Shown here piece after piece: positions 11,277 to 30,493 of a stretch of DNA of 64,000 nucleotides (within the stretch, counting starts at the first letter, position 1; every line of letters begins with the position of its first letter). This stretch comes from Pseudomonadota bacterium (lineage in GTDB: Bacteria; Myxococcota_A; Bradymonadia; Bradymonadales; GCA-2716585), in the NCBI GenBank assembly GCA_005804885.1, contig SYOX01000333.1, positions 1 to 64,000 on the forward strand, written 5' to 3'. Below the pieces are notes generated by a model that saw only the letters and a program-made list of their open reading frames with translations, had not been told where the DNA came from and did no database searches. Position numbers and translations under genes: made by a program.

Positions 11277-12905
11277 ATGCGCAAAGTGGTCGTGCTCTTG
11301 GTGATGGCGCTGTTGGCGCTGCAAGCCTGCGGAGATGAGCCGGTGGCGGAGCCCGTGGATGGCGACGGTCCGGGCGGCAAGGCGGACGAGAACGCGTTTA
11401 CGGCGGCGCTGGCGGGTCGTGAGGATCCGATCGGCAAGTGGCTCAGGGACAAGTCGAACGTGGACGAGAAGGGCCAGCTGGAGACGGATTACGTCCAGGT
11501 GGTGCTGGGGATCGCGGAGCAGGAGGGGTGCGCCGTGGATGGCGTCAAGACCTTCCTGATCTCGGACAGCCTCCTGACGGGCGCCGATCCCTTCCCGAGG
11601 ACGGTGACGTCGGTGTGCGCCAGCGATCCGGCGCGGGCTGCGGACGTCTTCTTGAGCGCGCCGGAGGCGACGGAGGACGGCGACATCGAGGAGCGGGTGA
11701 TCGAGATGTTCGCCTGGGATCCGAAGCTGGGCAGCTACCGGTTCTACCGGGTCGATCCGGTCGAGGGCCAGCAGTTCCGGGTCCAGGTGGACGCCGATCC
11801 GAGCGAGTGCCGCAACTGCCACCTGGGGTCGACGCAGATGGACCCGACCTTCATCCCGATGGCGCCGGTGATGAACGAGCTGACGCTGCCCTGGCAGCAC
11901 TGGAACGCGGCGCCGGACTTCGAGAGCGTGGACTTCGAACTGAGCGAGGAGGTCCAGGGCAAGGAGGGCTACAACCGGTCCGTGGCCCCCTGGCTGGGTT
12001 CGGCGCCGAACCTGGAGGCGATCATCCGCAAGGGCTTCGAGCGGGTCAACGGCGAGCGGCTCAAGGCGCGGCGGAACAAGCCGGCCAGCGTGGCCGAGTC
12101 CATGGCGCTGCTGCGGCCGCTCTTCTGCAATGAGCGGATCAACTTCGTGACCGAGGACTCCGGGACGGTAACGACGGCGGTCTACCTCGACGAGGGGATC
12201 ACGAACATGCTCAAGACGCTCGACGGCGGCGTGTGGCCCTGGGCGTGGTACAACGACAAGAAGGTGCGGCTGGGCGAGCCGATCGACGGCAAGCTGCTGA
12301 ACATGGTCGCGATCCGCGGCGCGGCGGACGTCGATTACGAGCAGCGGCTGGTGTCGGTGCGGGGCCTGGAGGCCGGTCAGGTCATGCGGGTCAAGGCGCT
12401 GGACTGGAAGAGGCCGGTCTTCTCGACCTTCCGCTGCGGCCTGTGGGTCGACGCCAACGAGCGCCTGCGCATCCAGCCCCCGGAGGTCAGCTCCGAGGCG
12501 CGCAACCTGAACCTGATGGCGACGCTCTTCGAGGAGATCATGACGGTGGCCAGCGCGGACGGCACCCGCGTGTCGCTGGCGCCCCCCGTGGGCTCGGCGG
12601 TGATCGCAGTGGATCTGGCAGACGAGGTCACCATCAACCTCCTGGCCGAGTCGATCAAGGGGGGGGCGGTGGCCCAGAGCGCGTGCGACGCGCAGACGGG
12701 CGCGGGCTTCTGCGCCGTGGGCCTTCAGGGCTTCGGTGATCTGATCGAGGCCCACATCAAGGTCATCGAGGCCGATCCCGGGGCGCGCGACAAGATGGCG
12801 CAGATCCGCAACGCGCGGGCCTGCATTGCGAAGGAGTTCTACAAGAACTCGCCCGACATCCCCGAGGTCGGGGCATGCGAGGGCGCCGAGGGCTCCAGAG
12901 AGTAG
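11277..12905 (+). CDS. GPGGKAD lipoprotein with single c-type haem motif (copy 1)
   Basis: 542 residues from the ATG at 11277 (GTG at 11268 is an alternative). The signal peptide ends in LQAC (Cys18), followed by an acidic linker with GPGGKAD at 31-37. A CxxCH haem c motif (CRNCH) is at 178-182, followed by PVMNELTLPWQHWN. Further conserved blocks shared with the genes at 12977 and 17356 are SMALLRPLFC and KRPVFSTFRCGLW. It looks like an exported monohaem lipoprotein of a family I cannot name; redox function is inferred from the haem motif only. First of five adjacent lipoproteins sharing the post-lipobox tag. Confidence 0.78.
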   Translation: MRKVVVLLVMALLALQACGDEPVAEPVDGDGPGGKADENAFTAALAGREDPIGKWLRDKSNVDEKGQLETDYVQVVLGIAEQEGCAVDGVKTFLISDSLLTGADPFPRTVTSVCASDPARAADVFLSAPEATEDGDIEERVIEMFAWDPKLGSYRFYRVDPVEGQQFRVQVDADPSECRNCHLGSTQMDPTFIPMAPVMNELTLPWQHWNAAPDFESVDFELSEEVQGKEGYNRSVAPWLGSAPNLEAIIRKGFERVNGERLKARRNKPASVAESMALLRPLFCNERINFVTEDSGTVTTAVYLDEGITNMLKTLDGGVWPWAWYNDKKVRLGEPIDGKLLNMVAIRGAADVDYEQRLVSVRGLEAGQVMRVKALDWKRPVFSTFRCGLWVDANERLRIQPPEVSSEARNLNLMATLFEEIMTVASADGTRVSLAPPVGSAVIAVDLADEVTINLLAESIKGGAVAQSACDAQTGAGFCAVGLQGFGDLIEAHIKVIEADPGARDKMAQIRNARACIAKEFYKNSPDIPEVGACEGAEGSRE

Positions 12906-12976
12906 AGGTTGAGAGAGAAACTTCAATGGTGTGCCGCCTTTGGCGCGGCGCTGATCGAAAAGCGAGGACTTGAGAG

Positions 12977-14572
12977 ATGATGAAGAAGAACCTGACGATG
13001 TTGCTTGCGCTGGGGCTGACGGCCGCGGCGGCCGTGGGCTGCGGGGACGCCACTGAGGAGCCCGGCGAGAACGCGGCCAACAACGGCCCCGGCGGCAAGG
13101 CCGACGAGAACGACGGGCCGGCGCCCTGCACGGTCGTCAGCGAGGAGGGGGCCCAGCTGGATCTGTCCCAGCGCAACGACGTCATCGCCAACACCGTGCT
13201 CAAGAGCGGGGAGGGCTGCCCGACGACCTTCGCCGAGATCATGGACAAGCTGCGCAAGACGGACGCGGACGACTCCTCTTGCAAGGTGGACAACGTCGAG
13301 GGCGGCATCTCCTCGATGATCGTCTCCGAGCGGGCCCAGCTGCTGCAGAAGAGCGAGGGCATGCGCGTCGTGGTCACCCGCCAGTGCAACGGCCGCGACC
13401 GCCACGACCTCTTCTTCTCGCTCTTCGGGGTCAGCAACGGGCGCGACCTGCCTGGCGACGTCGAGGTGATGTCCTTCGACAAGGCGGCGGGGGTCTACAA
13501 CTACTACGCGCTCGAAGGCGGCCAGTGGACCTGGTTCGGCACGAGCCTGGATCTGATCCAGCCCGGCGCCGCGGACAGGAAGCGCTGCGCCGGCTGCCAC
13601 ACCGGCGGCGGGCCGATCATGAAGGAGCTCGACACGCCCTGGAACCACTGGGAGGGCCACGAGGACGTGCCCGGCGCCAGCGAGCTGGTCGACAAGAACG
13701 AGGATCTGGGCTCCAAGAGCAGCGGCTCGACGATGGAGAGCCTGGCCAAGTCCGGCAACAGGGCCTGGAACCCGACGCGCGTCAAGGCGCTGGTGGCCGG
13801 TCGGGATCTGCACCAGCTCCTGCGCCCGCTGGCGTGCACGGTCGAGGTCAACCTCGACAACGGCGCCGACTTCCGCTCCAGCACGATGAGCCGGGTGCCC
13901 TTTGACTTCCTGCTCGACCCGGTCTTCAAGGGCTTCGGCGGCGTCAACGTCAGCGAGGAGGACTACCAGGCCCACCTCGAGGCGCTCGACCAGCGCATGG
14001 TCGACGGCCGCGGCAACGACATCAAGGACGCCCAGGACAAGCTGATCCGCGACACGATCTTCCGCTACATCTTCCCCGAGCGCGCCTTCGGCGACATGAA
14101 CTACGTCGAAGAGCTCAAGAAGGCCGGCGCCATCGACGACAACTTCATCAAGGATTTCCTCATCATCGACTTCGCCCGCCCGATCTACTCCGAGGCCCGC
14201 TGCGGCCTGATCGAGAGCCTGCCCGAGACGATCGAGGGCGACATGACGGTCGAGAACATCCGCAACGCCATCATCGCCAAGCTCGAAGGCGCCGCCGAGG
14301 GCACGGTCGAGGCCGAGCTGCTGGCCAACCTCAAGAACGCCGAGGACGACGCCGCCCACACCGCCAAGGTCGACACCTTCGTCAACGCCTGCAACGCCCG
14401 CGACAAGAAGGCCTTCATGGAGGACGCGCTGATGCTCGCCTTCCAGCGCCGCGCCCAGGCCCGCGAGCACCACGAGCGGGTCTTCGAGTTCCCCGAGACC
14501 ATGCCCGTGGCCGGCATGGAGGTGGGCGCCTCGGCGGGCCTCGATCCCGTCACCTGCGAGCTGGTTGAGTAG
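12977..14572 (+). CDS. GPGGKAD lipoprotein with single c-type haem motif (copy 2, divergent)
   Basis: 531 residues. Signal peptide ends in AVGC (Cys22); GPGGKAD at 37-43 after an Asn/Glu linker. A CxxCH (CAGCH) is at 204-208 followed by GPIMKELDTPWNHWEG, the same local pattern as in the genes at 11277 and 17356. DLHQLLRPLAC and RPIYSEARCGL echo their C-terminal blocks, so it belongs to the same family but is more distant. The C-terminal quarter is helical and rich in charged residues. It starts about 70 bp after the previous gene, consistent with cotranscription. Confidence 0.76.
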   Translation: MMKKNLTMLLALGLTAAAAVGCGDATEEPGENAANNGPGGKADENDGPAPCTVVSEEGAQLDLSQRNDVIANTVLKSGEGCPTTFAEIMDKLRKTDADDSSCKVDNVEGGISSMIVSERAQLLQKSEGMRVVVTRQCNGRDRHDLFFSLFGVSNGRDLPGDVEVMSFDKAAGVYNYYALEGGQWTWFGTSLDLIQPGAADRKRCAGCHTGGGPIMKELDTPWNHWEGHEDVPGASELVDKNEDLGSKSSGSTMESLAKSGNRAWNPTRVKALVAGRDLHQLLRPLACTVEVNLDNGADFRSSTMSRVPFDFLLDPVFKGFGGVNVSEEDYQAHLEALDQRMVDGRGNDIKDAQDKLIRDTIFRYIFPERAFGDMNYVEELKKAGAIDDNFIKDFLIIDFARPIYSEARCGLIESLPETIEGDMTVENIRNAIIAKLEGAAEGTVEAELLANLKNAEDDAAHTAKVDTFVNACNARDKKAFMEDALMLAFQRRAQAREHHERVFEFPETMPVAGMEVGASAGLDPVTCELVE

Positions 14573-14677
14573 CCGCGCCCCAGGCGCCATGATGTACATC
14601 GCGAACACGACGCATCGGATTTGACGGCCGGCCGCCCAGGGAGGCGGCCAGCCCAGAAATCAAGAAAGGGAAAAGCC

Positions 14678-15853
14678 ATGAACCGAAAGCACCTCCTGAT
14701 CCTCTGCGCCTTCGGCCTGCTCGGCGCGGCCGCCTGCGGCGACGCTCCCACGGCCCCGGTCCCGGACGACGACGACGACGACAACAACGGCCCCGGCGGC
14801 AAGACCGACACCCCCGAGGGTGACGCCCCCGCCGAGGAGCAGTGCCTGGATCGCAAGCAGGACGTCCTCAACAGCGCCCAGAAGCACTTCACCCCCACCG
14901 CGATCCGCTGGGCCTGCGCGGACGTGGCCGGCGTCAACACCGTCGGCCGCGACGATCGCGGCCAGGAGTACTGCGAGTACTTCTCCATCATCCAGCCCCC
15001 GCCGCTCAACGGCCAGGAGGGCGGCGAGCTGCCCCCCCCCGTGGCCACGGGCCAGAACCAGAACGGCGGCGGCGTCAGCGCCCTGAAGGTCGACCTGAAC
15101 GAGGACCAGCTCTTCTACCTGGAGGATCACCCCAACGAGGTCGTCGGCCAGTGCGTCTTCACCACCTGGCACGCCGACATCGAGGATCGCTTCGGGATCT
15201 GCGAGGACGACACCTGCGCCAACTCCAAGCTGCTCGGCTTCCCCCTCAACGGGGACAACTTCCGCATGAAGGTCAGCTTCAACTCCAACAGCGCCGCCTC
15301 GGCGCTGGTGCGCGACTGCATGAAGGCCACCATCCCCGCCGGCGACAAGGCCAACCCCGCCGATGACCTGCACAGCGACTTCTACCGCGGCTGCATGGTC
15401 ACCGCCCAGCTCTACGGCACCCAGTGGCGCCGCTCCGATCCCCAGGTGTGCGCCGCGGCCATCCGCCTGGTCGAGTGCGGCTGCTCGCTGCCCGACAACG
15501 CCGACGTCCCCACCGGCCTCGTCCCGCCGCAGCCCCAGAAGGACGCCGACGGCAATGACATCCTGACCCTGCGCGGCTTCCCGCTGGGCACCTGGTCCGG
15601 CGCCGCCGAGCTGCCCCTGGGCTGCCGCTACGTCGAGACGGGCGAGGCGGGCCAGAACCTCGTGGCCTGCGACCTGACCGCCGCCGACCTGCTCGTCTCC
15701 GCGGACGACCCCAAGGGCAAGTGCCGCGAGAAGTACGGCGACAACGTCGTCGTCCACGTCCCCGTCCCTCAGGGCGTGATCTCCTGCAGCCCCCCCACGG
15801 GCGGCGCCTACGCCGACACCTGCTCCAACACGCCCTGGGTTGTCGAGAAGTAG
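14678..15853 (+). CDS. GPGGKTD Cys-rich lipoprotein (pair member 1)
   Basis: 391 residues. The ATG at 14678 is preceded by AAAGGGA. Lipobox AAAC (Cys20), then six consecutive Asp, NN and GPGGKTD at 38-44. There is no CxxCH, but many cysteines are conserved with the next gene (AIRWACADVAGVN, DRGQEYCEYFSI, HPNEVVGQCVFTTWH, VECGCSLPDNADVP, KYGDNVVVHVPVP). The two are clear paralogues along their whole length. No known domain. A strong terminator follows, so its transcription probably ends before the paralogue. Confidence 0.76.
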   Translation: MNRKHLLILCAFGLLGAAACGDAPTAPVPDDDDDDNNGPGGKTDTPEGDAPAEEQCLDRKQDVLNSAQKHFTPTAIRWACADVAGVNTVGRDDRGQEYCEYFSIIQPPPLNGQEGGELPPPVATGQNQNGGGVSALKVDLNEDQLFYLEDHPNEVVGQCVFTTWHADIEDRFGICEDDTCANSKLLGFPLNGDNFRMKVSFNSNSAASALVRDCMKATIPAGDKANPADDLHSDFYRGCMVTAQLYGTQWRRSDPQVCAAAIRLVECGCSLPDNADVPTGLVPPQPQKDADGNDILTLRGFPLGTWSGAAELPLGCRYVETGEAGQNLVACDLTAADLLVSADDPKGKCREKYGDNVVVHVPVPQGVISCSPPTGGAYADTCSNTPWVVEK

Positions 15854-15975
15854 CCCTCGGGCCTCGGCCCACCCCCGCCCCCTCGCGGTCACCCTCGCCT
15901 TTCAGGGCCGCGACCGCAGGGGGCAGCCGCCACCCCCCGCCGACTTGAGGTCGTCGGGGCCGGCGGCCGGACAGC

Positions 15976-16019
15976 GCGCGGCCCGTCTCCTTGCCCTCAA
16001 GGACGGGCCGCGCCTTTTT
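15976..16019 (+). terminator. Strong rho-independent terminator
   Basis: A perfect 12-bp inverted repeat (15976-15987 with 16002-16013), a 14-nt loop, then C and five T. It lies 120 bp after the 14678 gene and only 16 bp before the start of the 16035 gene. It therefore either separates the two transcription units or acts as an attenuator-like leader for the second gene. Confidence 0.85.
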
Positions 16020-16034
16020 GAAGAGAGACCGACG

Positions 16035-17258
16035 ATGATCGCACCCCACATCAGGACACCAACACACGGATTCTTTGTGTCGAGGTCGATGGCCGCAGGG
16101 CTCCTGGCGATCCTCATCGCGCAGGCGGGCTGCGGCGAGGACGCCGCGCAGCCGACCCCCGGCGCCGACAACCCCGACAACCCCGGCGGCAAGACCGACA
16201 CCCCCGACGACGCCTCCGAGGACTCCTGCACGAAGCGCAAGGCCGACGCCCTGGCCGGCAACCAGAAGGTCTTCTCGCCCGAAGCCATCCGCTGGGCCTG
16301 CTCCGACGTCGAGGGGGTCAACAACAACAACCAGGACGACCGGGGCCAGGAGTACTGCGAGTACTTCGCCGTCGTCCAGCTCCCGCCCGAGGCCGAGGGC
16401 GCCGAGGCCCCCGAGCCCGCCACCGTGGGCCGGATCACCGTCGCCGAGCAGGACAACCTCGGGCGCCTGCTCATCGAGACGACCCCGCTGGAGATCGAGC
16501 TGACCGACGATCAGCTCTTCCATCTGGAGGACAACCCCGATGAGGTCGTCGGCCAGTGCGTCTTCACCTCCTGGCACCTCGGCGTGCCCGGGCCAGTGCC
16601 GAGCTGCGAGGACCCCGACGGCGACTGCGCCGACGTCCTCGGGATCCCGCTGACCGAGGAGTACTTCGGCATGAAGCAGCCCACCAACGCCAACGAGGCC
16701 GCCTCCGCCCTCGTCGAGGACTGCATGCTGGCCGACCCCAAGGTCGGCGACCCGGCCAACCCCGCCGACCCCTACCACAGCGACTTCTTCCGAGGCTGCT
16801 TCATCGCCGCCGACATGTACGGCACCGAGTGGCGCCGCTCCGACCCCGCCGTCTGCGCCGCCGCCATGCGCCTGCGCGAGTGCGGCTGCGCGCTGCCCGG
16901 CGGCGCCGACATCCCCACGAGCCTCATCCCCCCTCAACCCCAGATCGACGAGAGCGGCAATGAGGTCGTCACCTTCCGAGGCTTCCCGCTGGGCACCTGG
17001 GTCGGCGCCGATCAGCTCCCTGCCGGCTGCCAGTACGCCGATCTCGGCGAGGACAGCCGCACCGTGGTCACCTGCGACCTGTCGGCCATCGACCTGATCG
17101 ACCACTCCAGCGACCTCAAGCGCCGTTGCGTCGAGAAGTACGGCGACAACGTCGTCGTCCACGTCCCCATCCCCGCCGAGCTGTTGACCTGCACGCCCCC
17201 CGAGGGGCGCGCCTACGCCAACGACTGCGGGGCGACCCCCTGGGTGATCGACAACTGA
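16035..17258 (+). CDS. NPGGKTD Cys-rich lipoprotein (pair member 2)
   Basis: 407 residues from the ATG at 16035. The N-terminus is longer than in its paralogue (MIAPHIRTPTHGFFVSRSM before the hydrophobic core); lipobox QAGC (Cys33) and NPGGKTD at 49-55. It shares the paralogue's landmarks: AIRWACSDVEGVN, DRGQEYCEYFAV, NPDEVVGQCVFTSWH, RECGCALPGGADIP and KYGDNVVVHVPIP. The paralogues differ most in the segment between EYF and the QLF(Y/H)LED block, about residues 115-155. Function unknown. Its initiation codon lies immediately after a strong terminator hairpin. Confidence 0.76.
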   Translation: MIAPHIRTPTHGFFVSRSMAAGLLAILIAQAGCGEDAAQPTPGADNPDNPGGKTDTPDDASEDSCTKRKADALAGNQKVFSPEAIRWACSDVEGVNNNNQDDRGQEYCEYFAVVQLPPEAEGAEAPEPATVGRITVAEQDNLGRLLIETTPLEIELTDDQLFHLEDNPDEVVGQCVFTSWHLGVPGPVPSCEDPDGDCADVLGIPLTEEYFGMKQPTNANEAASALVEDCMLADPKVGDPANPADPYHSDFFRGCFIAADMYGTEWRRSDPAVCAAAMRLRECGCALPGGADIPTSLIPPQPQIDESGNEVVTFRGFPLGTWVGADQLPAGCQYADLGEDSRTVVTCDLSAIDLIDHSSDLKRRCVEKYGDNVVVHVPIPAELLTCTPPEGRAYANDCGATPWVIDN

Positions 17259-17277
17259 CCTTATGTTTTGCAAGGTC
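17257..17277 (+). terminator. Weak hairpin after the Cys-rich lipoprotein
   Basis: GACCTT-N9-AAGGTC, a 6-bp stem overlapping the stop codon of the 16035 gene and followed by a T-rich stretch (GCTTGTTTC, then GGTTTTTC). The stem is short, so termination would be partial at best. Confidence 0.3.
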
Positions 17278-17355
17278 GCTTGTTTCATGGGTTTTTCTAT
17301 TTAGTGTCGAGTCCACCCGGCCCTCGTCGGGCGGGATCAGAAGGCGGATCGGACG

Positions 17356-18957
17356 ATGAAAGCACGCACCACGACTCTGATCATGACCGCGACCCTGCTG
17401 GCGCTGGCCGGCTGCGGCGACGCGGCCGGGCCTGCCGCTGAAGCGGGCGGCGATGGCCCCGGCGGCAAGGCCGACGCGGTGGGCAACAGCGGCCTGCGGG
17501 CCGCGCTGGAGGGCCGCGACGACGTCGTCGCCCGGTGGCTGCGCGAGGTGGGCAACGACAAGGGGGAGGTGCCGGGGACCTACCGCGAGCTGCTCACGGG
17601 GGTGGCCGAGCAGATGGGGTGCGATCTGATCACGCAGCGCACCTTCGTGATCCTGCTGACGCGGGCGGACTACTTCCCGCGCAACATCATGACGCTGTGC
17701 TCGGACGACCCGCTCAAGGCCAGCCAGTTCTTCATCTCGACCCAGTCGGACTTCGGGGATCTGGTCGACATCGACCCGCGCGACATCAAGATGTACGCCT
17801 GGGACAACAAGGCGCGGACCTACCGGCTCTACGAGCTCAAGGGAATTGACGGCCAGCAAGAGGGGATGAAGCTGTCGATCGAGCCGGGCGAGTGCCGCAC
17901 GTGCCACACCGGGCCGGCGGACATGAACAACGCCCTGATGCCCTTCACGCCGATCATGAACGAGCTGGTCAACCCCTGGACGCTGTGGAACGCCGAGCCG
18001 GACTTCCGCTCCCACCAGTTCGAGGACACGATCAACGACGCCATCGCCGAGGCCCCCGTCTACAAGGAGATGACCGAGGCCGGGATCATGGACTCGGCCT
18101 CCAACTTCGAAAAGCACATCCGCGCCGCCATGGATCGCGTCACCAACGCCCGGATGCTCAAGCGCCGCGATCCGGCCAGCGTCCCCGAGTCCATGGCGCT
18201 GCTGCGGCCGATGTTCTGCGACGAGACGCTCAACTATGTCTCGGAGAACCACTTCACCGGCGAGACGCACGCCAGCGTGGCCATCGACGACGCCATCCGC
18301 CGCCTCTTCCTCACGATCCGGCCCGACAACTGGCCCTGGGACTGGCTCAACGACGGGCGGCTGCGCCTGAGCATCCCCGGCCCCGGCGAGGAGCCGCTGG
18401 CGGTGATGCCCGTGCGCGGCGAGTCGACGGTCCAGGTCGAGGTGGCGCTGGTCAAGCGCCGCGTCTTGAGCGCCAACCAGGCCCTGCGCGTGCGCGCCCT
18501 GGACTGGCAGCGGCCCGTCATGAGCCAGTTCCGCTGCGGCCTCTTCAAGGACGCCGAGGCGCGCCTGCTGACCAGCCCCCCGGACCTGTCCGCCTTCAAG
18601 CGCAACATCGACCTGATCCCTTATTTGTACAACGAGATCATGACCTTGCACACGACCGATCCCGTCTCGGGGCAGCCCCGGACGATCCCGCTGGCGCCGA
18701 CGACCGAGGGGGCGGCGTTGATCGCGGTGGCCGACGCGCAGGAGGCCGAGGCCGCCTACGCGCTCTCGTCGGGCGACTTCAAGGATTACGAGGTGAGCGT
18801 CGACGCCTTCGGCGACGCGCTGGAGGCCCACTTCCAGTCGCTCCAGGAGCCCGGCCAGCGCCCCCTGCTCGACGCCGAGCGGATCGCCCGAGGATGCGTC
18901 GCTCGCCTCCTGCACCCCGCCTCACCGCGCATCCCCGGCGCCGACGACTGCCGCTGA
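17356..18957 (+). CDS. GPGGKAD lipoprotein with single c-type haem motif (copy 3)
   Basis: 533 residues. Lipobox LAGC (Cys20); GPGGKAD at 34-40. CxxCH (CRTCH) at 180-184 followed by PIMNELVNPWTLWN. It is the close paralogue of the 11277 gene: RRDPASVPESMALLRPMFC, WPWDWLNDGRLRL and RPVMSQFRCGLF match block by block, and total lengths are similar (542 and 533). It probably encodes an exported, lipid-anchored monohaem protein. The five-gene lipoprotein run ends here; the next gene is convergent. Confidence 0.78.
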   Translation: MKARTTTLIMTATLLALAGCGDAAGPAAEAGGDGPGGKADAVGNSGLRAALEGRDDVVARWLREVGNDKGEVPGTYRELLTGVAEQMGCDLITQRTFVILLTRADYFPRNIMTLCSDDPLKASQFFISTQSDFGDLVDIDPRDIKMYAWDNKARTYRLYELKGIDGQQEGMKLSIEPGECRTCHTGPADMNNALMPFTPIMNELVNPWTLWNAEPDFRSHQFEDTINDAIAEAPVYKEMTEAGIMDSASNFEKHIRAAMDRVTNARMLKRRDPASVPESMALLRPMFCDETLNYVSENHFTGETHASVAIDDAIRRLFLTIRPDNWPWDWLNDGRLRLSIPGPGEEPLAVMPVRGESTVQVEVALVKRRVLSANQALRVRALDWQRPVMSQFRCGLFKDAEARLLTSPPDLSAFKRNIDLIPYLYNEIMTLHTTDPVSGQPRTIPLAPTTEGAALIAVADAQEAEAAYALSSGDFKDYEVSVDAFGDALEAHFQSLQEPGQRPLLDAERIARGCVARLLHPASPRIPGADDCR

Positions 18958-19078: not shown

Positions 19079-19771
19079 TCACTGGAGCGCCTTGACGACC
19101 CCGTCGACGGGCTGGCCCAGCCCTTCGGTCTGGTGGGAGACGGCGCCGGCCGGATCGAGCACCGTGAGCACATTGCTGTGCTTGAACTCGCCGTCGGAGG
19201 TTTGGCGGTATCGGACGCCGAGGGCCGCGGCCAGCTCGCGGATCTGCCCGTCCTCGCCGTGGAGGAAGGTCCAGCGGCTCGTGTCGATCTCGTGGCTTCG
19301 AGCCAGCTCAAGGAGCGCCGCCGGGGTGTCCCGCTCGGGATCGATGGTGATCAGCACCATCCGGGTGCGGGCGCGGACCTCAGGGTCGAGCGCGGCGTCG
19401 ACGCGCTTGAGGTCGTTGATGAGGATGGGGCAGGCGTGCTGGCAGGTGCCGTAGAACATCAGCAGCACGGCGGGGTGGCCGCGAAGCGCGTCGAGTCGGA
19501 AGGCGGCGCCGTCCTGTGTGGTCCACGGGCTGTCGAGTTGGTAGAGCGAGAGCCCCTGGGCCGCCGGGCTGGCGGCCATCTCGTCAGGGGCCGAGGCGGG
19601 CGCGGAGCCCGGGGCGGAGGCGGGGCCCAAGTCAGCGGTCGAGGCGGGCGAGGAGCCCGGGGACGAGGTGGGCGCGAGGTCGGGCTGCGCCGAGGGGGTC
19701 GGGGCGTCGGTGCAGCCCGAGGCGGCCACCAGCAGGGCGCAGAAGGCGAGGGATTTCAAGGCGTTGCTCAT
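19079..19771 (-). CDS. SCO1/SenC family copper chaperone lipoprotein
   Basis: 230 residues. Lipobox AASGC (Cys20), then a Ser/Pro/Ala-rich linker to about residue 70. The thioredoxin-like SCO domain has the copper-binding CxxxC (GTCQHACPI, Cys110 and Cys114) and the distal histidine in GEFKHSNVL (His198), with LITIDPERDTP between, so all three Cu ligands are present. SCO proteins deliver copper to cytochrome oxidase CuA or related cuproenzymes. The start overlaps the stop of the NirV-like gene (ATGA), placing it in the nirK operon. It may therefore serve the copper nitrite reductase, which is an inference. Confidence 0.9.
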   Translation of the reverse strand: MSNALKSLAFCALLVAASGCTDAPTPSAQPDLAPTSSPGSSPASTADLGPASAPGSAPASAPDEMAASPAAQGLSLYQLDSPWTTQDGAAFRLDALRGHPAVLLMFYGTCQHACPILINDLKRVDAALDPEVRARTRMVLITIDPERDTPAALLELARSHEIDTSRWTFLHGEDGQIRELAAALGVRYRQTSDGEFKHSNVLTVLDPAGAVSHQTEGLGQPVDGVVKALQ

Positions 19772-20565
19772 GGTGATTCCGCGTCGTCGGCGCATCGAAA
19801 GCCGAGGCTCCGCACCGTGTAGGCGGCCTGGAGGCTGGATCGGAAGGCGAAGCGCATGAAGGTGGCGTAGTCGCGGACGTTCTCGGCGCCCAGCGCCGCC
19901 CCACCGCAGAAGCGCTGGAGCTGTTTGTCGCCCTCCTGGCGGTTGTCGCCGCTCAAGAATGAGGCGTTGAAGTCCTCGACCCACTCCCAGACCAGGCCGT
20001 GCATGTCGTACGCGCCCCAGGCGTTGGGGGCGCTGGAGGCGACCGGAGCCAGCGGGCCCGTGCGCGGCCTGGAGTAGAAGTCCAGGATGCGGCGCAAGAA
20101 GTCGGGGTCATCGCTGGCGTCCAGGTGGGCCTCGTCGGCGCGTGCGACGAACTCCCATTCGTGCTCGCCGGGAAGTCGCCGGCCATGAGCGCCGCAGTAG
20201 GCCCTGGCGGCAAACCAGGACACGTTGATCACGGGCTGGTGGGGTTCCACGCCGGGGCCGAGGGTCAGGGGGCCGGCCCAGTGGCGAAGGTATCCGGCGT
20301 CGGCCAGCAGCGGCGTGGCGGTCCCGCGACGCCACCGCGGCGCGGCGTTGACGAAGGCGAGGAACTGGGCGTTGGTGACCGGGCGGTCGTCGAGCTTGAA
20401 GGGCTCCACGCGCGTCAGCGGCTCAAGGGTGAGGTCCGCCTCCTGCTGCGGGTAGAAGGCGCGGTACTCACCCCCCGAGATGAGGATCTGGGGTGAGGGC
20501 TCCTGGGCCGAGGCGGAGGCGGCCAGGAGGATCGAAGAGAGCAGCGCGAGGGGGTTGGGCTTCAT
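19768..20565 (-). CDS. nirV: NirV-like formylglycine-generating-enzyme family protein
   Basis: 265 residues with a Sec signal peptide (MKPNPLALLSSILLAASASA). The body is an FGE-sulfatase (SUMF1-like) fold: EPFKLDDRPVTNAQFLAFVN, PVINVSWFAARAYCGAHGRR, LPGEHEWEFVARA, AYDMHGLVWEWVEDF and SLGFRC. The start codon is one base after the nirK stop. NirV proteins are FGE relatives classically found next to nirK; the exact role is not established. The gene symbol rests on fold plus position. It overlaps the SCO1 gene by 4 bases. Confidence 0.82.
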   Translation of the reverse strand: MKPNPLALLSSILLAASASAQEPSPQILISGGEYRAFYPQQEADLTLEPLTRVEPFKLDDRPVTNAQFLAFVNAAPRWRRGTATPLLADAGYLRHWAGPLTLGPGVEPHQPVINVSWFAARAYCGAHGRRLPGEHEWEFVARADEAHLDASDDPDFLRRILDFYSRPRTGPLAPVASSAPNAWGAYDMHGLVWEWVEDFNASFLSGDNRQEGDKQLQRFCGGAALGAENVRDYATFMRFAFRSSLQAAYTVRSLGFRCADDAESP

Positions 20566-20566
20566 C

Positions 20567-22114
20567 TCAAGGGTGTCCGAGGTTGGCGGGCTTCTGGATG
20601 GAGGCGCGCACCGCGCCGACTTCGGTCGCCGCGATGGGATCGCCCTTGTTTCCGAAGCTGTTCCTCACGAAGGTCAGCGCGTCGGCGATCTCGTGGTCTG
20701 TCATGTTGGCGAGGCCAGGCATGGTCCCGTTGTACTTGACGCCGTTGACCTCGATGGGACCTGCGAGCCCCTCGAGCACCACCCGGATCGAGCGCTCCTT
20801 GTCGGCCATCAGGTAGTCCGAGCTGGCCAGCGGCGGGAAGATGCCGGCCAGCCCCGTGGCGTCTTTCTGGTGGCAGGCCGAGCAGGTCCCGAGGAAGGTG
20901 GCCTGTCCGCGCAACATGCGGGCCTCGATCGAGTCACCCTGGGCCGAGGGTTGCTCGCGCAGGGCGACCCCCTCGTCGGTCTTCTCCCCGAGGTAGACCT
21001 CGTCGACCTCCTGACCCGAGTAGATGATCTTGTCTTCGGGGCCATCGGCCTTGAGCATGCCCAGGGCGCCCTTGTTGAAGGCGCGGAAGATGGCGTGGTC
21101 CACGAGGATGAAGGTCCCGGGCACGTCCATCTTGAAGTCCACGATGGTCGCGCCGCCAGCGGGTATCAGCGTGGTCTGGACGTTGGCCGAGGCTTCGGTG
21201 GCGCCCTCCTTGTAGACGCGGTCGAAGATCTCGCCGATGACGTGGAACGAGCTGACGAGGTTCGGGCCTCCATTGCCGACGAAGAGGCGGACGGTCTCGC
21301 CGACCTTGGCCTTGAGCGCCCGGTCGCCGGTCAGCGCCTCGTCGCGGCCGTTGAACACGACGTAGGCGGGGTCTTCCTTGATCGCCCGATCCATGGCGAA
21401 GGGTTGGAGGCCAGGCTCGCGGAAGTCGCCCTGGGTGTAGAACTCGCTCTGGACGACGTAGTACTCGCGGTCGACCTTCGGGAAGCCGCCCTCGGGCTCG
21501 ACCACGATCAGCCCGTACATCCCGTTGGCGAAGTGCATGCCGACCGGCGCCGTGGCGCAGTGGTAGACGTAGACGCCCGGGTTCAGGGCGCGGAAGGAGA
21601 ACTGGGTCTGGTGCCCCGGCGCGGTGAAGGTGCTCGTGGCGCCGCCGCCAGGCCCCGTCACGGCGTGCAGGTCGATGTTGTGGGGCATGGTGTTGTTGGG
21701 GTGGTTCATCAGGTGAAATTCGACGAAGTCCCCCTCTCGCACGCGGACCATCGGCCCAGGGACGGTGCCACCGAAGGTCCAGAAGGTGTAGGTGACGCCG
21801 TCGGCCAGAGTCATCTCCTTCTCAAGCACCTCCATCTTCACCACCACCTTGGCGGGCGTATCGCGGTTGATGGGCGGTGGGGCGGCTGGCGGCGCCAGCA
21901 GGGCGGCGTTCTCGACAGAGAGCGTCGCAGGATCGATGGGCGCGAGGGTCTTTGGCCACGATGGCGCCTCCTTCGGGGCCTCTTCGGCCGGCTTGACCTC
22001 AGCTGGCCTGGCCTCGGGAGGGGGGGCGGAGGGCGCGGTCGGTGGCGGCGGGTTGTTGCAACCGAGGAGGGTGAAGATCAGGGTGACGCTCGCAGCCAGG
22101 GTGGATCTTTGCAT
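20567..22114 (-). CDS. nirK: Lipoprotein copper nitrite reductase fused to cytochrome c
   Basis: 515 residues from the ATG at 22114, preceded by GGAG at proper spacing. Lipobox LLGC (Cys19) and a Pro/Glu/Ala-rich tether to about 60. Two cupredoxin domains carry the NirK ligands: His145 (MPHNIDLH), His150, His185-Cys186 (VYHCATAP), His194 and Met199, plus His340 of the second domain ([10 protein letters not shown]). A C-terminal cytochrome c domain has CSACH at 411-415 and a Met-containing PGLANM segment. It reduces nitrite to NO, taking electrons through the fused haem. Membrane anchoring plus an in-cis cytochrome would let it dock to the respiratory chain. First gene of nirK-nirV-SCO1. Confidence 0.92.
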
Positions 22115-22397
22115 GGGAGACTCCGTCGCGTTCATGTGCTCGTGAGGCGTTGGGATGGCCGAGCCACGACGGCGGCTTGAGCAATGCACATGCCAGCGCC
22201 CTGAGTGACTTTGGAGGTCGATGCTGACGGGATCCGTTCGATGCTCCGAGCGCAGCCCGTCCTGAACTCGGGGCGATCTCACGCATCTCCTGCGCGGTTT
22301 CGTCGGGTGCCGAAATTCTTGCGGCGGCGCCGGATCGAGGACGGTCGCTTGCGCGTGCGTCAGCCCAGGCGTCCACGTCCTGGCCCGAGCGGAAGCC

Positions 22398-27713: not shown

Positions 27714-28337
27714 ATGAGCTCACGGCGGGCGCTTCTTATTTCCTGGGTTTGTCTCTCGATGGTCGCGGTCGGCTGCGTCCACCCAGGTCGCAACAGCCTG
27801 GTCTTCCCGGGAGGCCCCAGCGCGGGCGAGTCCGGGGCCAGCAAGAGCGACAGCGGCGACTCGGGCAGCGGCCAGCAGAGCGACGACAGCAGCAAGAGCG
27901 ACAGCAGCAAGAGCGACAGCGGCCAGAGCGAGAACATCCTGAGCACGACCGTCGTCGTGTCGGTGCTGGCCCTCGGGGCGCTGATCGTCGTCGGCGTGCT
28001 TGCGATCAGCGACACGAGCCAGCAGAGCACGCGCCAAAGGGCGCAGCAGTACCTCCAGGAGCACCGCCGCACGGTCCAGATGGCGCTCAGCCAGGGGTCG
28101 GGGCCGATGATCGACGACATCGCCATGAGCCTGTCGCTGCCCGCCGAGCACCTGCCGCGCCTCGGGGCGGCGGTCCAGCGCCAGCGGCCCGGGCTGAGCG
28201 CGTACTTGAGCGACGGCGTGGTGACGATCGAGGAGGCCGAGGGCTTCTGCGCGGCGCTGGTGAAGGCCATCGACGCCGATCCGGTGCTGTCGCCCTACGT
28301 GGTCGCCTTGAGCGACAAGCTGGTCGAGTCCCTCTGA
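27714..28337 (+). CDS. DUF3015-like small lipoprotein
   Basis: 207 residues. MSSRRALLISWVCLSMVAVG ends in lipobox Cys21, followed by a Ser/Asp/Lys/Gly low-complexity stretch (repeated SKSDS) and a second hydrophobic segment at about 80-98 (STTVVVSVLALGALIVVGVL). The C-terminal half (QQYLQEHRRTVQMALSQGSG, SLSLPAEHLPRLGAAVQ, VTIEEAEGFCAALVKAI) resembles what I know of DUF3015. The stop is 8 bases before the DUF4105 gene, a pairing seen elsewhere, which supports the assignment. A run of ten G lies upstream at 27595-27604. Confidence 0.7.
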   Translation: MSSRRALLISWVCLSMVAVGCVHPGRNSLVFPGGPSAGESGASKSDSGDSGSGQQSDDSSKSDSSKSDSGQSENILSTTVVVSVLALGALIVVGVLAISDTSQQSTRQRAQQYLQEHRRTVQMALSQGSGPMIDDIAMSLSLPAEHLPRLGAAVQRQRPGLSAYLSDGVVTIEEAEGFCAALVKAIDADPVLSPYVVALSDKLVESL

Positions 28338-28345
28338 GACCGCCG

Positions 28346-30493
28346 ATGCGTCTGTGCGCGTGGTTGCTCCCGCTGGCCGCTCTGATCGCCTCGGAGGCCC
28401 GCGCCGCCGATCCGCTGGCCGAGATGGAGGCGCGCCTGCCCAGGTCGCTGCGCGCCATGGCCCAGCCGCCGCCAGACCTTTCCCGCTTCGAGGCCGATGA
28501 TCCCAGGCGAGCCCAGGGCTTCCTGGTGGTGCTGGCCCAGCGCCTCGACGCCATCGAAGGTTACAGCCGCGACCCTGCGTGGCTGGCGATCATGGGGTGG
28601 GGGAGTCCGGGGGAGACGGGCCTGACGTGGTCGAGCGCCGCGCTTGAGGAGGCCGCCGGGCGCTACCCGACGTCCGGCGGGAAGGCCGATCCCAGGGCGG
28701 ACTTCGCCGCCTCGGTCGCGCTGGCGTGGAGCGCGCCGGACTTCAGCTGCCGCTTCCCGCTGCGCGCCCGCTTCCTGTCCGAGCGCGGCCTCATCCCCGC
28801 CCCGCTGCCTCTGGACACGGGCGGCTGCCCGAGCTTCGAAGCCTGGGCCGCGCTGGACGCCATCGAGGGCGTCGAGCTCATCTTCACCACCCCGAGCTGG
28901 AGCGATCCGGCGGCCACCGCAGGCCACGTCCTCCTGCGCCTGCGCGCCCGCCAGGATCTCGGCGTCGTCAGCCCGACGACCGAGCGCGTGCTGAGCTACG
29001 CCGTCGACCTGAGCCTCCCCGAGAACAACGAGTGGCGCCTCTTCAAGGGCCTCGTCGGGATCCACAAGGGCCAGCTCCTCTTCAACGAGGGCTGGGAGGT
29101 CGCCCACCGCTACAACACCCTTGAGCAGCGCGACACCCTCATCTACGACCTGAGGCTCTCCAGGCGCGAGCTGCGCGATCTGATGGCGCAGCTCTGGGTC
29201 CAGCGCGAGGCCGAGAGCCGCATCCCCTATTACTTTTTCTCCATCAACTGCGCCAGGATGACCTACGACGCGCTGCGCGCCGTGCTCCCCGAGTTGAGGC
29301 GGCGTCCGGCGTGGTTCGCCCACCCCCATGAGGTCATCAGCGCGCTGATGGCCGCCGGGCGCCTCACCCCGCGCGGCGTCCACCGATCGCGCCGCAGCAA
29401 GGCGCTGATCGCCGAGGGCGCCCGCGAGCGGCTGGCCGAGGCCCTGATCCCGGTTGTGGGCTTCGCCGCGCTCTACGAGGCGCGCTGGGAGCCCGTCGAG
29501 GTCCGCGAGGCGGCCCTGAGGCGCTTTGCGTCCGTGGCGCGGCTCGACGCCCTGACGCCCGCCCGCCGCGCGGCGCTGACCGAGTACCTCGACGCGCTCA
29601 TCGACATCGAGAACCACGCGCTCGACGCCGATCTGGGGGTCTTCAACGACGCGCTCACCAGCGGCGCGCTCGACGCCGCGCTCGAGCTGCGGGCGCAGCT
29701 CCCGATCCAGCTCGCGCGGCGCGAGGACCCCTTCCCCGAGGGCGCGATCAAGGTCAGCGGCTCCCGTCGGGCCAGGGCGCGCGCTGGCGTCAACCAGGAT
29801 CTCCAGCCCGTCGCGCGGCTGCGCCTGAGCGTGGTGGACGAGCAGCCCGGCGAGCCTCGGCAGGTCGATCTCAGGCGCAGCTCGCGCTTCGAGTTCTTGA
29901 GCTCGGAGACGGCGATCCGCTGGGACGGCGCCGAGGCCAGGCTCGACGAGGCTCGCCTGACGCTGCTGTCCACGGCCAACTACGGCACCCACGTGCGGAC
30001 GACCGAGGGCTGGCTCTCCAGCAGGACGGGCTTCGCCCTGGATCTCAGCGTCCAGTCCCTCCCGAGCCAGGGCGTCCCCTTCGGGCTCTGGCTGCGCGTC
30101 GGCGAGAGCCTGACGCTGGCCCACAGCGACGACGACACGGCGGTGCTCGCGGTCGGCCTGGACCTCGCCCTGGCCTCCTTTGCCCACCAGGGCGCAGGCC
30201 CGCGCGGCGCCCAAGGCCCCGTCGGGCAAGTCGACGCCATCAGGGCGGGGGTCGGCGCGTGGGCGGAGCTGGCGCTGCCGCTCTCGGCCGAGGGCCTCCA
30301 CCCGCTGCGCCTCTGGGGTCGGGCGACGCCCTCGCTCAACCTCGCCGGGCCGCTCTTCGAGCTTGAGCTGCGCGCCAGCCTCGATCTGCTCCTCTCGCGC
30401 GATCGCGGGTGGATGGCGGGGCCCTTCTTCCAGCTCAACAGCGGCCTCGTGGCTGCGGACGGCTGGATCGGTGGCTTGTCCCTGAGCTATTGA
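28346..30493 (+). CDS. DUF4105 (Lnb N-terminal periplasmic domain) protein
   Basis: 715 residues. MRLCAWLLPLAALIASEARA is a cleavable signal peptide. The central region has the DUF4105 signature: TPSWSDPAATAGHVLLRLRA (conserved His), LFKGLVGIHKGQLLFNEGWE, RYNTLEQRDTLIYDLRLS and YYFFSINCARMTYDAL (conserved Cys), which together suggest a Cys/His papain-like (NlpC/P60-type) site. The C-terminal 250 residues are beta-strand rich (TRTGFALDLSVQ, LRLWGRATPSLNL) and may form a barrel. Directly follows the DUF3015-like gene. Likely cell-envelope located; substrate unknown. Confidence 0.82.
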   Translation: MRLCAWLLPLAALIASEARAADPLAEMEARLPRSLRAMAQPPPDLSRFEADDPRRAQGFLVVLAQRLDAIEGYSRDPAWLAIMGWGSPGETGLTWSSAALEEAAGRYPTSGGKADPRADFAASVALAWSAPDFSCRFPLRARFLSERGLIPAPLPLDTGGCPSFEAWAALDAIEGVELIFTTPSWSDPAATAGHVLLRLRARQDLGVVSPTTERVLSYAVDLSLPENNEWRLFKGLVGIHKGQLLFNEGWEVAHRYNTLEQRDTLIYDLRLSRRELRDLMAQLWVQREAESRIPYYFFSINCARMTYDALRAVLPELRRRPAWFAHPHEVISALMAAGRLTPRGVHRSRRSKALIAEGARERLAEALIPVVGFAALYEARWEPVEVREAALRRFASVARLDALTPARRAALTEYLDALIDIENHALDADLGVFNDALTSGALDAALELRAQLPIQLARREDPFPEGAIKVSGSRRARARAGVNQDLQPVARLRLSVVDEQPGEPRQVDLRRSSRFEFLSSETAIRWDGAEARLDEARLTLLSTANYGTHVRTTEGWLSSRTGFALDLSVQSLPSQGVPFGLWLRVGESLTLAHSDDDTAVLAVGLDLALASFAHQGAGPRGAQGPVGQVDAIRAGVGAWAELALPLSAEGLHPLRLWGRATPSLNLAGPLFELELRASLDLLLSRDRGWMAGPFFQLNSGLVAADGWIGGLSLSY

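Follow-up and report, generated by a model that had tools for sequence, protein, structure and literature searches.

In Bradymonadia and related Myxococcota, a small and varied set of lipoproteins has a short element, GGK-A/T/G/S/C-D, at the end of the tether. This suggests an address label that has not been described before. It was noticed in a window of 64,000 nucleotides, the whole stretch of DNA that was analysed (contig SYOX01000333.1). We consider it probable that this tag is a functional signal. Judged from sequence and by analogy, it may be a clade-specific short linear sorting signal for surface or matrix delivery, and we hold this reading tentatively. How lipoproteins are chosen for the surface or the extracellular matrix in Gram-negatives outside Bacteroidota is a largely open question. 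As the tag can be searched for and is switched on or off among close homologues, it makes the sorting question directly testable. The tag occurs in Bradymonas sediminis (on a matrixin in strain FA350, G005:C1:2249994) and probably in Persicimonas caeni, both cultured predators, and would help to predict secreted predation enzymes.

Five neighbouring lipoproteins carry the tag

According to the preliminary description, five neighbouring lipoproteins share a post-lipobox (G/N)PGGK(A/T)D sequence, in which the lipobox Cys is followed by Gly, Asp/Glu and a linker of 10-20 residues. All five starts, lipoboxes and tags were verified in the sequence (Table 1). The gene starts of P1 to P5 agree with the positions given there, the post-cleavage starts read CGD, CGD, CGD, CGE and CGD, and the linkers between lipobox and tag are 12, 14, 17, 15 and 13 residues long. 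With a basic n-region, a hydrophobic core and the lipobox Cys, P1 to P5 are Lgt/LspA-type lipoproteins. A strict lipoprotein scan recovered four of the five; in P4, whose n-region is longer, these elements are present as well.

Table 1. Tagged lipoproteins of the window and positions of their tags
Feature	Position	Strand	Evidence
P1, lipoprotein with one CxxCH haem motif, homologue of P5 and P2	11277..12905	+	ORF, lipobox (Cys codon 11328), alignment; no Pfam match
Tag GPGGKAD of P1	11367..11387	+	pattern search
P2, lipoprotein with CxxCH, remote homologue of P1/P5	12977..14572	+	ORF, lipobox Cys 13040, alignment
Tag GPGGKAD of P2	13085..13105	+	pattern search
P3, Cys-rich lipoprotein	14678..15853	+	ORF, lipobox Cys 14735; AF2 mean pLDDT 86
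Tag GPGGKTD of P3, residues 38-44, tether/domain border	14789..14809	+	pattern search, AF2 model
P4, Cys-rich lipoprotein, 55% identity to P3	16035..17258	+	ORF, lipobox Cys 16131, alignment
Tag NPGGKTD of P4	16179..16199	+	pattern search
P5, CxxCH lipoprotein, 43% identity to P1	17356..18957	+	ORF, lipobox Cys 17413, alignment; AF2 mean pLDDT 86
Tag GPGGKAD of P5, residues 34-40, end of disordered 1-38	17455..17475	+	pattern search, AF2 model

By alignment, the five proteins fall into two homology groups. P1, P2 and P5 form the first (P5 and P2 with 43% and 25% identity to P1), each with a single CxxCH haem-binding motif, and the Cys-rich P3 and P4 form the second. When a profile of P1/P2/P5 was compared with P3, the match was confined to positions 1-59, and by this comparison P1/P2/P5 and P3/P4 show no relationship past their N-termini. 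Neither family was matched in a Pfam search of P1 to P5, and the confident AF2 models of P3 and P5 gave no match to PDB folds at E below 0.001. With two homology groups, the window alone represents two independent families, not five.

Directly adjoining the cluster, on the minus strand (19079-22282), are genes for a lipoprotein of the SCO1/SenC type, for a protein with an FGE-sulfatase domain and for a multicopper-oxidase protein that has a cytochrome c domain at its C-terminus. The last of these looks like a copper nitrite reductase.

The tag is enriched behind lipoboxes

In the window, GGK[AT]D occurs six times against 0.13 expected from dinucleotide shuffles; the sixth occurrence, at 28676, has no lipobox ahead of it. 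A search of the 9.86-Mb genome with PGGK[AT]D returned six forward-pattern matches, five of which are P1 to P5, and the reversed control returned none. Across 57 genomes of the class the pattern was found 21 times, five times in the window and 16 times elsewhere. In nine of these 16, a lipobox Cys precedes the match by no more than 45 residues (L037, L039, L040, L042, L043, L044, L045, L047 and L048). Such post-lipobox stretches make up 1.5% of coding residues (800 kb sampled, half from the same genome as the window and half from another genome of the order, G005), which gives a binomial p of about 4e-13, with an independent number slightly below nine since L037 and L045 are one orthologous pair. 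None of the remaining matches outside the window resembles a signal-peptide protein without lipobox. The tag is rare away from lipoboxes.

A further lipoprotein of the window, at 27714, has a tether of repeated SKSDS (SKSDSGDSGSG...SSKSDSSKSDSG). This sequence is tag-like but has no Gly before Lys, and it was excluded from the counts.

Structure of the tag

The make-up of the tag was analyzed in 83 unique tagged N-termini, in which Lys and Asp are fixed partly because the collecting motif required them. The residue before Lys is Gly in 70 and Ala in 9 of the sequences, and the position before that is Gly in 57. Between Lys and Asp we found Cys (31), Ala (22), Gly (16), Thr (12) or Ser (2). Cys stands there exactly when a second Cys lies at most six residues upstream (31/31 versus 0/52 of the others, a count that is inflated by relatedness of the sequences). 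The same switch is seen between orthologous proteases, with GNGGKGD in one (L209) and CNGGKCD in the other (L231), and inside the cluster of one genome, where GKGD, GGKSD and CTGKCD stand together (L112). We infer from these sequences that the paired Cys would form a small disulfide loop, as a second version of the same element. PGGK[AT]D, the motif in its original wording, was too narrow: its core is [G/A]-K-[A/G/T/S/C]-D, together with the Cys-paired C-x-x-G-K-C-D. The KCD pattern was left out of the counting because phylum-wide it is swamped by Cys-rich repeats (CGNGKCD).

The distance from the lipobox Cys to the tag Lys ranges from 8 to 42 residues with a median of 18, a spread that rules out a fixed-distance sorting rule. 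In the AF2 model of P3, residues 19-39 are disordered, which places the tag at the boundary between tether and folded domain; the tag of P5 likewise begins within the disordered segment and ends just behind it. All four Gly codons, both Lys codons and both Asp codons are used in the tags. This synonymous variation argues for a constraint at the protein level.

Unrelated lipoproteins carry the tag

A tagged set was collected by a lipobox-anchored pattern search and joined with the loci from the other searches. The 66 tagged proteins fall into 17 BLAST clusters by their post-tag domain, with the window families in one and 16 others, two of which consist of short or possibly truncated ORFs (L040, L048). 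About 15 unrelated tagged lipoproteins are found beyond the window families, across Bradymonadia. Their domains include Trypsin_2, matrixin/astacin with helix-hairpin-helix, alpha-amylase, 5'-nucleotidase and CotH; others have no identified domain. The tag thus extends past the two families of the window, and descent within these two does not account for it. Two outcomes that would have spoken against a signal, a similar frequency of the tag away from lipoboxes and its restriction to these two families by descent, did not appear in the computed data.

The genome of the window itself holds at least two additional carriers, a 5'-nucleotidase (L017, SGGKTD) and the L077 protein (PPGKAD). None of the 32 lipoproteins in a 400 kb sample of this genome is tagged. 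Extrapolated from this sample, the genome would have roughly 800 lipoproteins, of which the at least 7 tagged ones make up about 1%.

The Bradymonas sediminis sample also contains long lipoproteins that recur as close pairs and have tethers rich in Asp, Thr and Asn (L158-L177; for example L166 2120/7251 and 4103/9051). These pairs look like recent tandem duplications.

Gain and loss of the tag within families

Two families were gathered by their domain alone, so that members were not selected on the tag and circularity was avoided. Among 30 N-termini of trypsin-like lipoproteins, GK[AGTC]D stands directly ahead of the domain start in eight and is absent in 22. Seven of the 13 matrixin-like lipoproteins are tagged, and the six untagged ones all have a lipobox, including a homologue from the same genome as the window (L368). 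Tethers are longer in tagged members of both families (p 6e-4 for the trypsin-like and 1e-3 for the matrixin-like), a difference that in the trypsin-like family is accounted for by the length of the tag itself. The presence of tagged and untagged members within each family indicates that the tag was gained and lost. Since untagged homologues still have the lipobox, the tag is dispensable for anchoring and perhaps also for surface location. Furthermore, a role as structural part of one fold is ruled out by the unrelated folds that carry the tag and by the homologues that do without it.

Tag types differ between clades

The P2-P3-P4-P5 gene cluster is kept in Bradymonadia, Nannocystaceae and Kofleriaceae, and a diverged form is present in Polyangiaceae (L110, L112, L114, L118 and others). 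Cluster members of Bradymonadia have K[AGST]D or KCD tags, and those of Nannocystaceae and Kofleriaceae have C-x(2-4)-K-C-D. Three homologues of the Nannocystaceae type (L119, L124, L125) have kept the Cys pair and lost the Lys. In Polyangiaceae-type members of all cluster families, a GD[DE]Q[DE]-like sequence is found in the same place (L127-L136, L088-L091). That two unrelated families switch their tag type together points to one common, putative reader, with the reservation that the parallel switch from GGKxD to GDDQE may have happened only once or twice in evolution and that the clades were assigned by MAG taxonomy.

The GDDQE pattern was also searched in six Polyangia genomes, where it gave mostly out-of-frame chance matches. 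Outside the cluster families, only three lipoproteins of these genomes carry GD[DE]Q[DE] (L262, L299, L316), and one such lipoprotein has what we take to be a chagasin-like sequence. With so few carriers, the Polyangiaceae tag is less well established.

Comparison with known sorting signals

The nearest likeness is to the lipoprotein export signal (LES) of Bacteroidota, K-(D/E)2, Q-A-(D/E)2 or SDDDD, which is required at +2 to +6 after the Cys (PMC5080379). Both are short charged N-terminal signals with Lys and acidic residues on a subset of lipoproteins, both have a clade-dependent consensus, and LES carriers are often surface hydrolases. Unlike LES, the tag has its Lys far beyond +6, beside the folded domain, and has a Gly-rich core with a small residue between K and D ([G/A]-K-x-D) and a Cys-paired form.

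In M. xanthus, the signal for extracellular-matrix lipoproteins is Ala at +7 (FibA), and the mechanism of the matrix route is described as unknown (PMC3222651). As proposed for the tag, this signal acts through post-lipobox residues to sort lipoproteins of Myxococcota outward. That signal is a single residue at a fixed position, with no GGKxD motif described (PMC3222651). The mature starts of P1 to P5 (CGDEPVA, CGDATEE, CGDAPTA, CGEDAAQ, CGDAAGP) have A, E, A, Q and P at +7. Because neither the position and sequence of LES nor Ala at +7 describes the tag, we did not class it under either signal.

Lol-avoidance, with Asp at +2 in E. coli and Lys at +2 in M. xanthus (PMC3222651), likewise makes post-lipobox sequence a determinant of location. 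It is read right beside the lipidated Cys, whereas in the present set a start of the CG[D/E] type is common to proteins with and without the tag. The MYXO-CTERM/myxosortase system, a lineage-specific sorting tag of the phylum, consists of a C-terminal Cys, a transmembrane helix and a basic Arg-rich tail (PMC11980579). As with this and other CTERM tags, GGKxD is a short lineage-specific sequence common to unrelated extracellular proteins of Myxococcota; in contrast to MYXO-CTERM it stands near the N-terminus, brings no transmembrane helix with it and is found on ordinary lipoproteins. P1 to P5 gave no NCBIfam or Pfam CTERM match, and their C-termini are soluble sequence.

No curated NCBIfam model explains the tag in the N-termini of P1 to P5, where weak matches to LptM, CglD and SCO4651 fell below cut-off. 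A search of the openly accessible literature for GPGGKAD or PGGKAD found no mention.

Possible functions of the tag

The original claim of a lipoprotein signal is supported in part, in that the tag is linked to the lipobox, rare elsewhere, carried by unrelated proteins, gained and lost, and different between clades in parallel; the dedicated machine that would read it is putative. For the sorting signal that we tentatively favour, the following route can be proposed. Judging from the lipobox, Sec export and LspA processing would leave the protein anchored by its lipid, on a tether that is flexible and acidic. In sequences and models, the tether ends with [G/A]-K-[A/G/T/S]-D or C-x-x-G-K-C-D directly ahead of the folded domain. 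A putative envelope factor would bind this element and sort the carrier, with the cell surface or the extracellular matrix as its most likely destination. Other Myxococcota would use different tags, as species of Bacteroidota differ in their LES consensus. Surface or matrix delivery is favoured on indirect grounds: the identifiable carriers are mostly hydrolases expected to act outside the cell, LES is a precedent with a clade-dependent consensus (PMC5080379), and in M. xanthus a post-lipobox signal serves the matrix lipoproteins (PMC3222651). The distance of 8-42 residues between Cys and Lys counts against sorting, since known Lol-avoidance and LES signals are read close to the Cys; such variation, which sets the tag apart from both LES and the M. 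xanthus signal, would suit a factor that attaches to the tether next to the domain. A more far-reaching version, which we regard as rather doubtful, is a sorting code of Myxococcota, in which a clade-specific factor would read the tether-distal motif and not the lipidated Cys, with GGKxD or C-x-x-G-K-C-D in Bradymonadia, Nannocystaceae and Kofleriaceae and GD[DE]Q[DE] in Polyangiaceae. It would be a separate route for selected enzymes to the surface or matrix.

The main rival, which we consider unlikely, is a shedding site, where a protease would cut in or just after the tag, so that the folded enzyme would leave its lipid tether and reach the surroundings or prey. In unrelated proteins the tag marks precisely the border of disordered tether and domain, a place where a cut would release an intact domain; several carriers are hydrolases, and there is no conservation after the Asp. 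However, if K and C in C-x-x-G-K-C-D were separated by a cut, a disulfide would still join the two parts; cleavage would therefore have to occur outside the loop, and the acidic GD[DE]Q[DE] of Polyangiaceae would require another protease.

Modification is a still weaker candidate. An exposed Lys (or Asp) would accept a glycan, a lipid or a covalent cross-link, with peptidoglycan or a surface polymer as possible partners of the link. In its favour are the fixed Lys and Asp with small neighbours, as expected of an accessible acceptor (an invariance only partly independent, since most rows were collected by a motif that required both residues), and the Cys-paired form, which would present the Lys on a loop. 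Against it, the Polyangiaceae tag stands in the same place without a Lys, and the three Nannocystaceae-type homologues have the Cys pair without the Lys.

That the tag is a docking peptide, by which the cluster lipoproteins would gather on a shared partner (for instance an outer-membrane scaffold from the same cluster), appears very improbable: P2 to P5 remain linked even in distant Myxococcota and switch their tag type jointly, but outside the cluster the tag is also on proteases, a nucleotidase, an amylase and CotH-like proteins, and it occurs in genomes where no homologues of the cluster were detected. Least probable of all is that there is no signal and the tag is a composition-driven tether end, spread via reuse of leader segments among paralogues, as the short tethers of low complexity and the almost identical DNA of the five window tags might suggest, since the carriers have different signal peptides and linkers, the tags vary in their synonymous codons, the post-lipobox occurrence is far above chance, and the Cys pair is present or absent as a unit.
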